From assembly GCA_018303805.1 (NCBI GenBank), contig JAGVXL010000001.1, positions 1-61,844 on the forward strand: a DNA stretch of 61,844 nt, in the 5' to 3' direction. Below, piece by piece: positions 1,877-9,182 of this stretch; position 1 is the first letter of the stretch; each line of letters starts with the position of its first letter. The notes beneath the pieces are model-generated. The model had not been told where the DNA came from. It ran no database searches and worked only from the letters and a program-made list of their open reading frames with translations. The translations under genes and the position numbers were made by a program. Origin of the DNA: Candidatus Pacearchaeota archaeon. GTDB taxonomy: Archaea > Nanobdellota > Nanobdellia > Pacearchaeales > DTIR01.

Positions 1877-2617
1877 TTATTTAAGAATTCTGGTATGGAT
1901 GCCACATTCACCGCCGCACTTTGAGGTTCCCTGCCATCTTCCTGCTCTTTCAGGTTCATTGTCAGGAACAATTATTGAGCAGGGCTCACATCCCAAGCTC
2001 CTGTAGCCCTTTTTGTAAAGTGGATTAACCTTTATATTGTTCATGGCAAGATATCTCCAGATATCCAGTTCAGTAAACTGAAGAATAGGATTTATTTTTA
2101 CCAAGCCGCCCTTGACTTCAACTTCCTGATAATCCTCTCTTGTCTGCCCCTCTGTTTTCCTCAATCCAGTAATCCACGCATCCAAATCCTTGACTGCTTC
2201 TTTTGTCGGCTCTACTTTAAGAAGCCTGCAGCATTCATCAGGGTTGGTTTCATAAAGACTTTTCCCTGTTTTTTCTTTTACATAATCAAAATATTTATGA
2301 AAATCGTGTGCCGGCAGCAAAACTGTATTTATTTTATTCTCCTTGAAAATTTCTGGAATTTCATCTGCAACAATGTAAACTGTTGCGTCAAGATTCATTT
2401 CCCTGTTTATTTCAATAAGGTATTCAAGGGTTTCACTAGGTTTGTAAATTGTCATCACGGAAAAGATAGGCAGTTTTGGCTCAATGCTTCTCGAAAGATG
2501 CACAGCAACCATGCTGTCCTTGCCAAAAGAGCATGCCACTGCTATTCTCTTATATTTGCTTGCAGCATCTTTTATTATTAATTTTGCATGCTCTACTTTT
2601 TCATTCAGTGTTCCCAT
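1877..2617 (-). CDS. cysH: Phosphoadenylyl/adenylyl-sulfate reductase family
   Basis: PP-loop ACSFGKDSM, NPDECCRLLKVEP, LGCEPCSIIV...ERAGRWQGTSKCGGECGIH. Confidence 0.9.
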   Translation of the reverse strand: MGTLNEKVEHAKLIIKDAASKYKRIAVACSFGKDSMVAVHLSRSIEPKLPIFSVMTIYKPSETLEYLIEINREMNLDATVYIVADEIPEIFKENKINTVLLPAHDFHKYFDYVKEKTGKSLYETNPDECCRLLKVEPTKEAVKDLDAWITGLRKTEGQTREDYQEVEVKGGLVKINPILQFTELDIWRYLAMNNIKVNPLYKKGYRSLGCEPCSIIVPDNEPERAGRWQGTSKCGGECGIHTRILK

Positions 2618-2628
2618 TTTTTCTTTTC

Positions 2629-3066
2629 TTATTTCTTTTTAGCCTCAATCCCTAAAAGGTAATGCTCCTCCTGTTGTTTTAAGTATAGAATCTTATACCC
2701 TTCATTTTTTATGCTGCCTGTGACATTGCCGCACGATTCCTCATTAAGCAGGATTTCTAAAACTCCATCATCCATCTCTTCAAGTTTCAGTTTTGCCTTA
2801 ACAAAATTTAACGGGCAAGAAGTTTGCCGTAGGTCAAGCACCTCTCTATTGCAGCTTACAGAACCGCCGCCCATATAATAAACAAACTCAAGCCTGTCCC
2901 CATTCTTTATTTTAACATCATCATATTTGTTTTTATCAACAATTTGGGAATTCAATTCAACCGTGACAGTCTCTTTTTTTATATTCCTGTCTTCAAGCAA
3001 ATTTGATAGGGTTATTTCTCCTACCATCTGCTCTTTCTTGCCATTTACAAGAATATCTATTGCCAT
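2629..3066 (-). CDS. ThiS/MoaD-like ubiquitin-fold domain fused to TusA/SirA-like sulfurtransferase domain
   Basis: N-terminal beta-grasp ending LEFVYYMGGG, directly followed by LDLRQTSCPLNFVKAKLKLEEM, a TusA-like signature. Confidence 0.8.
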   Translation of the reverse strand: MAIDILVNGKKEQMVGEITLSNLLEDRNIKKETVTVELNSQIVDKNKYDDVKIKNGDRLEFVYYMGGGSVSCNREVLDLRQTSCPLNFVKAKLKLEEMDDGVLEILLNEESCGNVTGSIKNEGYKILYLKQQEEHYLLGIEAKKK

Positions 3067-3098
3067 TTTTTCCCCTAAATTTTAATCATTCCTGATTT

Positions 3099-4016
3099 TC
3101 AAAATTTAAACATTTCTGTGCTGAGGTATCTCTCACCTGTATCAGGAATTATCACAACAACCTTCTTGCCTCTGCCTAATTTTTTTGCCACTTGCAATGC
3201 CGCAAAAAGGTTTGCGCCAGAGGAAATACCTGCGAAGATTCCCTCTTTCCTTGCTAGTCTTCTTGCTGTCTGTATTGCTTCTTCATTTGAAACCTGGATT
3301 ATTTCATCAAGAATTCCTGTGTTAAGCACCTTTGGGATGAACCCCGCCCCAATGCCCTGGATTTTGTGCGGCCCTTTAGGGCATCCTGAAAGCACAGCAG
3401 AATCTTTCGGCTCAACAGCGATAATCTTTATGCTCTTGTCTCTTTTTTTCAGAACTTCACCAACTCCTGTTAATGTTCCACCGGTTCCAACACCCGCGAC
3501 AAATGCATCTAAATCAGGCACCTGCTTTAAAATTTCCTTTGCTGTTGTTTTCCGGTGTATTTCAGGGTTTGCAGGATTGTTGAACTGTTGCGGCTGGAAA
3601 TAGCCGTGCTTGTCTGCCAATTCCTGTGCTTTTTCAACTGCACCCGTCATGCCCTTTAGACCTTTTGTCAGCACTATCTCTGCCCCAAATGCCTTAAGAA
3701 TATCCCTTCTCTCAACACTCATTGTTTCAGGCATTGTCAGAATTAATTTATAGCCCTTGTATGCGCATACAAATGCCAAGCCAATTCCTGTATTTCCTGA
3801 TGTTGGTTCGATTATTGTGTCACCTGGCTTTATCTTTCCATCTTTCTCTGCCGTCTCAATCATCGCAAGACATATTCTATCCTTGACAGAACTCATTGGA
3901 TTAAAGGATTCAAGTTTTGCATACACCCCGGCTGAATCTTTCCCCACAATCCTGCTTATTTTGACAACAGGGGTGTCCCCAATCAATTCCAAAATGCTAC
4001 TCACAACCTTTGCCAT
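3099..4016 (-). CDS. cysK: Cysteine synthase (O-acetylserine sulfhydrylase family)
   Basis: [18 protein letters not shown] (PLP lysine), [29 protein letters not shown]. Confidence 0.95.
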
Positions 4017-6784: not shown

Positions 6785-8314
6785 ATGGCTGAGATGATTA
6801 ATGACAGGCTTCAAAGCAAGCCATGCATGATTGGATTGCTTGGAAAATGCTGCAAGCATTGCTTGATGGGGCCATGCATTCTTGCGAAACCAAATGATAA
6901 AGGTGTATGCGGGGCAAACATTGATGTTGTTACAGCAAGGAACATTTTAAGATTTGTTGCAGGAGGGGCTGCTGCACATTGCGGGCATGCCTATCACATG
7001 CTTGAATATTCAGACAGGAAGTATTCTGCGAGATATATAGAGAAAAAAGCTCCAAGATATTTATATAAATTATGGGAAAGACTTGGAATTGTGCCAAAAA
7101 TCCATTTTGAGCATTTCAAGGACATTTCTGAAGCGCTTCATGCAAGCACCATGGGTGTTGATGCTAATTACGGGCATATTCTTGGTAATGCCATAAAGCT
7201 TGGCATAATTGACGGATACTTTGGCATGTATCTTGCAACAGAGCTTGAAGAAATGGAGTTTGGCCTGCCCTCCATCAGGAAGGGGATTGTTGATTTAGGC
7301 GTTATAAAGCCGGAAAAAATTAATATTGCTGTGCATGGGCATTTCCCGCCATTGGCAGAAGCTCTTGCCAAAGAAGTGAAGAAAAAGGAAAATTCTGACA
7401 TTAATTTGATAGGGGTGTGCTGCACAGGAACGGCATTGCTTGCAAGGCATGGAATTCCTCTTGCGGGGAATTTCATACTGCAGGAGCAGGTGATTGTTTC
7501 AGGGTGTGTTGATGTTCTTGCTGTTGACATGCAATGCATTATGCCTTCCTTGTCTGACTTGGCTGAATGCTATCACACAAAAATTGTAACTACAAACGAG
7601 CTTTGTAGGATTCCAAAGGCAATGCATCTCCCTGTCTCTGGCAGGAAGAGTGCCTCAGATGTTGCAAAAAGAATTATCGCCCTTGCAAGAATAAACAGGC
7701 ACAACAGGAATAAGGGAAAGATGAAGTTAAGCAATAATAAAACAGAGGCAGTTGTCGGATTTTCTGAAAATAATCTGCCTCTTGCAGAGTGGGCAAAGAT
7801 GCTTTCTGAGGGAAAGATAAAGGGAGTTGTTGCCGCAATCGGCTGCGAAAATCCTAGAGTGAAGGAAAACTGGGTTGATTTTTACAGGGAATTAAGCAAG
7901 GATTACATAATCCTAACGACTGGATGCATTGCCTTTAAACTGGCAGCTGCTGGACTGCTTGATGGAAAAAGATTTTTCCATCTTGGAAGCTGTGTGAATA
8001 ACTCGAGAGTTGCTGAAGTGTTCAGGAAAATAGCGGAAATCATTGACAAGCAGATAACAGAACTGCCTTTCTTGATATCCTGCCCAATGCCTATAACAGA
8101 AAAAGCCATAGCGATTGGCTTTTTTTTCGCAGCTTTGGGTGTTGATGTGCATTTTGGATATCCCTTCCTGCTGACTTCTGACACGAAGATCGCAGATTTT
8201 CTCAAAAATCTGCTCAAGAAAGATTTCAGAAGCAAGATTTTTGTTGAAACAAATCCAGAAATGTTGATTGCAAGAATAAGGAAAGAAGGGCTGAGCGATA
8301 AGGTAAAAAATTAA
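6785..8314 (+). CDS. cooS: Short Ni-dependent carbon monoxide dehydrogenase catalytic subunit
   Basis: CMIGLLGKCCKHCLMGPC...GVCGA (B/D clusters), GHFPPLAE, GVCCTGTALLARHGIP, DMQCIMPSL, AIGCENPRV, TTGCIAF, GSCVNNSR, EKAIAIG. Confidence 0.9.
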   Translation: MAEMINDRLQSKPCMIGLLGKCCKHCLMGPCILAKPNDKGVCGANIDVVTARNILRFVAGGAAAHCGHAYHMLEYSDRKYSARYIEKKAPRYLYKLWERLGIVPKIHFEHFKDISEALHASTMGVDANYGHILGNAIKLGIIDGYFGMYLATELEEMEFGLPSIRKGIVDLGVIKPEKINIAVHGHFPPLAEALAKEVKKKENSDINLIGVCCTGTALLARHGIPLAGNFILQEQVIVSGCVDVLAVDMQCIMPSLSDLAECYHTKIVTTNELCRIPKAMHLPVSGRKSASDVAKRIIALARINRHNRNKGKMKLSNNKTEAVVGFSENNLPLAEWAKMLSEGKIKGVVAAIGCENPRVKENWVDFYRELSKDYIILTTGCIAFKLAAAGLLDGKRFFHLGSCVNNSRVAEVFRKIAEIIDKQITELPFLISCPMPITEKAIAIGFFFAALGVDVHFGYPFLLTSDTKIADFLKNLLKKDFRSKIFVETNPEMLIARIRKEGLSDKVKN

Positions 8315-8738: not shown

Positions 8739-8795
8739 TGCAAAGAAAAATTTTAAATACAGGCTAAACAGCATAATAGGATAAAAGAAGTGAAA

Positions 8796-9182
8796 ATGGC
8801 AAAAAAAACCGAAAAAATTAAGGAGAAAACAGGCAAGGCTAAAAATGAAGAAAAATCAGGCAGTGGTGAAGTGAAAGAGATAACTGATGCTGAGTTTGAG
8901 CCCCTCCTGAAGGAGAATGATGCTATCTTGGTGGATTTTTTTGCAGAGTGGTGCATGCCATGCGTGATGATGGTGCCTGTTATGGATGAGCTTGCAAAAG
9001 ATTTTGCAGGCAGGGTTGTGTTTGCAAAAATGAATGTTGATGAGAACCATAACACCCCTGCAAAATTCAAGATTATGTCTATCCCAACCCTGCTGATTTT
9101 CAAGAAAGGTGAGCTTGTCCAGAGATTTACCGGAGCATTGTCTTATGACATGCTGAAAGAGAAAATAGATTCATGTTTGTAA
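8796..9182 (+). CDS. Thioredoxin (WCMPC active site)
   Basis: ILVDFFAEWCMPCVMMVPVMDELAKDF...MSIPTLLIFKKGELV. Confidence 0.93.
   Translation: MAKKTEKIKEKTGKAKNEEKSGSGEVKEITDAEFEPLLKENDAILVDFFAEWCMPCVMMVPVMDELAKDFAGRVVFAKMNVDENHNTPAKFKIMSIPTLLIFKKGELVQRFTGALSYDMLKEKIDSCL

Follow-up and report, generated by a model that had tools for sequence, protein, structure and literature searches.

The closest described relative of the enzyme discussed here is ChCODH-IV of Carboxydothermus hydrogenoformans (PDB 6elq), a nickel-containing CO dehydrogenase (Ni-CODH) of 633 aa that was its best match in both sequence and structure. Compact members of the family have also been described. The mini-CooS of Thermosinus is a short CODH-like protein with the full ligand motif, assigned to clade G, and clade H is a deep clade that appeared once the length limit was dropped from 550 to 400 aa (PMC8776680). 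Compact CODHs are nevertheless poorly covered, since a 2019 survey discarded sequences shorter than 550 aa (PMC6344411) and a 2026 survey of genome context left out clades G and H (PMC13056359). Our search of the open-licence literature found no paper on a short CODH in DPANN archaea. A CODH scaffold is not by itself proof of CO turnover, because one such scaffold, with an altered active-site motif, is known to hold a different cluster (PMC9311411).

The gene that we describe lies in a window (by which we mean the whole stretch of DNA analysed, 61,844 nucleotides) from a Candidatus Pacearchaeota archaeon, the genome of which is one contig of 575,132 bp with a single prismane gene. Re-reading the open reading frame (ORF) returned exactly the coordinates and length given in an earlier note on this DNA: 6785–8314 on the plus strand, encoding 509 aa. 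The gene was identified by ORF, profile, fold and structure matches. Its product scores 348.9 bits against the Pfam Prismane family and 322.6 bits against TIGR01702, the NCBIfam CooS model, which is below that model's equivalog cut-off of 478 bits, an annotation threshold rather than a biochemical criterion. A score of this size is what would be expected of a shortened, divergent member, the deletions themselves being part of the cause. Hybrid-cluster models, by comparison, reach 50.3 bits, and the NCBIfam hydroxylamine reductase matches are weak. Sequence comparison thus confirms the ORF as a genuine homologue of Ni-CODH.

The ligands of the D, B and C clusters, and the acid–base His and Lys, all map onto ChCODH-II when the two proteins are aligned. 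The Cys residues of the D cluster (C14 and C22; a type II D cluster) and of the B cluster (C23, C26, C31 and C42) form one motif, C14-x7-C22-C23-x2-C26-x4-C31-x10-C42, at 6824–6910 (this and the other features of the gene are on the plus strand). The C-cluster ligands are one His and five Cys: H186 (7340–7342), C212 (7418–7423, with C213 adjoining), C251 (7535–7537), C354 (7844–7846), C381 (7925–7927) and C403 (7991–7993). H186 is the second His of a VHGH motif, and is assigned as the ligand because the CooS of R. rubrum has Asn at the first. The acid–base pair comprises H65, which with H68 and H71 occupies a helix (6977–6997) equivalent to H93, H96 and H99 of ChCODH-II, and K440 (8102–8104), the counterpart of K563. 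The earlier note had held that the B- and D-cluster Cys, the C-cluster His and Cys, and the Lys of EKAIAIG are retained, and had named loss of C-cluster ligands as the result that would overturn this; all six are present. Ligands and acid–base pair are kept, moreover, in 17 of 17 sequences (the window copy and 16 short relatives), while neighbouring positions of the His helix vary in a few. The sole deviation seen in the window copy is a Glu at the position of ChCODH-II D219, which is Asp in ChCODH-II and in the 16 relatives.

Two main segments are absent relative to ChCODH-II: about 52 aa (residues 104–155), at 7013–7030, and 28 aa (residues 489–516), at 7964–7975, both sites being placed by alignment and structure match. 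An 11-residue stretch, the N-terminal 17 residues and smaller gaps make up further losses. None of the absent segments contains a ligand. ChCODH-IV, whose fold, metal ligands, His and Lys are shared by the short enzyme, is ~33% identical to it and contains one stretch of about 55 aa and another of about 27 aa that the short enzyme lacks. The earlier note had proposed a structural model as a way of finding what is missing. An AlphaFold2 monomer, built from 37 sequences and no templates, has a mean pLDDT of 89.8 and a pTM of 0.92; its top Foldseek match is 6elq (TM 0.89 by query length), and the matches listed are CODHs throughout. We are confident, on the strength of this model, that the predicted fold is that of a CODH.

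Comparison with other genomes supports shortness as a family trait. Sixteen relatives of 489–567 aa, 47–66% identical, group with the window copy in one clade of 17 rows, with 100% support in three trees, which supplies the placement in CODH phylogeny that had been suggested as a check. Thirteen are archaeal, mostly DPANN, and three are bacterial (two from Elusimicrobia and one from a Fibrobacter MAG). The clade is discrete: identity within it is at least about 47% and length at most 567 aa, whereas sequences outside are at most 35% identical and mostly at least 611 aa long, fragments and a 470-aa Anaerospora protein being set aside. Within the order, 11 of 135 sampled genomes have a match, ten to the short form and one (G005) to a longer CODH; the other 124 have none. 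Short forms in the order are 55–66% identical to the window copy, a strong conservation. A phylum-wide draw of genomes added no short members outside the order. A scan of named genomes with two peptide patterns located at least 15 short loci under the record labels Pacearchaeota, Aenigmatarchaeota, Diapherotrites, Nanoarchaeota, unnamed archaeon, Elusimicrobia (two) and Fibrobacter (one), most of these genomes being MAGs. Truncation or a frameshift, which the earlier note had raised as a possible undoing of its claim, is ruled out as the cause of shortness by the same-length form in ten genomes. Viral origin was also considered, and is rejected; viral contigs contain no relatives. The first description of the protein as short, stand-alone, ligand-complete and from a DPANN-like archaeon is supported on each count. 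It says too little, in that the enzyme is no one-off but belongs to a clade that spans many genera and some bacteria. Among the roles that it put forward (CO detoxification, redox balancing or another small-molecule reductase activity), sequence does not discriminate.

The place of the clade among other CODH clades is uncertain because its stem is long. It may be part of published clade H, or may be related to mini-CooS and clade G, and it is perhaps already in the published tree. The likeness to clade H is that of a deep clade surfacing at a lower length limit. It resembles mini-CooS in being short and CODH-like and in carrying the whole ligand motif; the proxy that we used for mini-CooS comes from Anaerospora hongkongensis (Sporomusaceae, L125), has 470 aa and is 23% identical to the short CODH. 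An AU test did not reject a tree that joins this proxy to the short clade (p 0.419), which, the proxy being distant and on a very long branch, speaks neither for nor against such a grouping. The longer CODH of the same order, in G005 (L033, 8567–10765), is full-length and carries an N-terminal FeThRed_B domain, the catalytic domain of ferredoxin:thioredoxin reductase (FTR). It shares the prismane core, but at 732 aa and 33% identity it falls on another branch of the tree. A DUF1858-like protein adjoins it.

The genes flanking the window CODH are ordinary archaeal genes. The order TtuA-like, CODH, 123-aa protein, thioredoxin (8790–9182, plus strand, by profile match), glutamate dehydrogenase-like recurs in a genome of the same family (G004, L027), and together these argue against contamination. 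A functional link to this thioredoxin, two genes downstream of the CODH, is putative. Across the clade there are zero constant neighbours, and a conserved operon partner is rejected; recurrent ones are a thioredoxin reductase (TrxR)-like flavoprotein (three genomes), Pta with AckA (two genomes of one genus), and small DUF1858 and DUF6485 proteins. Elsewhere in the window, the minus strand carries a group of genes (1877–4016) for a CysH-like reductase, a ThiS–TusA-like fusion and a cysteine synthase-like, PLP-dependent enzyme, which suggests a small sulfur assimilation cluster. Between 24001 and 28000, GC content drops to 0.28 and the GC skew is strongly negative; in most of the window GC is about 0.37–0.45.

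Genome-wide, the absence of ACS subunits next to the gene, remarked on earlier, extends to the whole window genome. Profile searches of 11 genomes, including the ten short-CODH carriers, found neither acetyl-CoA synthase (control genomes were positive) nor the large subunit of energy-converting NiFe hydrogenase. The short-CODH genomes thus lack the ACS subunit that marks a CODH/ACS complex and the NiFe large subunit that marks a hydrogenogenic CODH/ECH system. The gamma subunit of 2-oxoacid:ferredoxin oxidoreductase (Por) occurs in all ten carriers, and in the window genome a PorD-type ferredoxin adjoins it. CooC was not identified among three CbiA-type matches in the window genome, which are an archaeal MinD, a RadB-like recombinase and a long frame that recurs in related genomes.

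We favor, with a probability of roughly 0.6, a compact Ni-CODH that is stand-alone and catalytically competent, acts as a homodimer and trades electrons with the ferredoxin pool of the cell. CO and CO2 would be interconverted at a nickel-loaded Ni–Fe–S C cluster, and electrons would reach ferredoxin, probably the pool that Por also uses, by way of the B and D clusters in the presumed dimer. The proposed physiological direction is CO oxidation rather than CO2 reduction. Supporting this are the ligands and acid–base pair in 17 sequences, the 55–66% conservation, the AlphaFold and Foldseek results, the lack of ACS and NiFe hydrogenase, and the presence of Por gamma; against it stand the CooC result and the score under the CooS cut-off.

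An unlikely rival reading wires the short CODH to thiol redox, with electrons from CO passing by way of ferredoxin and a flavin TrxR devoid of NADPH motifs to thioredoxin. The TrxR-like gene lies 1 bp from the CODH in L024, ~40 bp in L029 and one gene away in L028, which is suggestive, from gene order, of such a link. Chance would place a TrxR within two genes in 3 of 9 genomes with a probability of about 2e-5 to 3e-5 if the genomes were independent and the hypothesis preset, but neither holds: the adjacency was spotted after the fact, the three genomes are one family, and most short-CODH loci lack a TrxR. The FTR-fused CODH of the same order also fits. The CODH-adjacent TrxRs lack HRRxxxR, a criterion for non-NADPH reductases (PMC10880999). 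The strict motif is missing, however, from all 9 carriers and from all 12 readable non-carrier sequences alike (the controls drawn from 17 non-carrier genomes), an order-wide loss independent of CODH, and we reject it as a CODH-specific signal. The chain is also incomplete in the window genome, where neither a Pyr_redox_2 match nor an FTR catalytic chain was found; its thioredoxin gene stands without either reductase, unlike those of the nine other carriers, each of which has one Pyr_redox_2 match. In a broader and most improbable reading, the clade would be a lineage of compact CODHs that has gone unrecognised in DPANN archaea and drives the reduction of thioredoxin by CO-derived electrons; if true, this would provide an NADPH-independent thiol system for reduced-genome symbionts or fermenters.

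Operation in the opposite direction is also very unlikely. The enzyme would then be an electron sink that makes CO from CO2, using ferredoxin reduced by the oxidation of 2-oxoacids in a fermenter devoid of hydrogenase. Pta, short CODH and AckA are consecutive genes of the same strand in L025 (5271–8617) and L026 (8585–11940), as such a role would have it, and all carriers have Por and no NiFe hydrogenase. That gene order comes from one genus only, though, the hydrogenase search covered the NiFe type, CO2/CO is a couple of very low potential, and with 124 of 135 genomes of the order lacking a match, a sink of this kind is no general need. Departure from CO chemistry altogether, for example towards reactions of the hybrid-cluster protein type, in which hydroxylamine or NO is reduced, is very unlikely, for although the Pfam family is common to both and weak hydroxylamine reductase matches occur, the CooS score is far above those of the hybrid-cluster models, and every Ni-CODH C-cluster ligand is kept along with the His and Lys.

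The stand-alone, ferredoxin-coupled CODH that we favor would be a natural compact Ni-CODH, ~120 residues below the studied enzymes with its metal sites intact, from which the requirements of the scaffold could be learned. Its occurrence indicates CO chemistry in DPANN archaea, organisms whose metabolism is mostly unknown.
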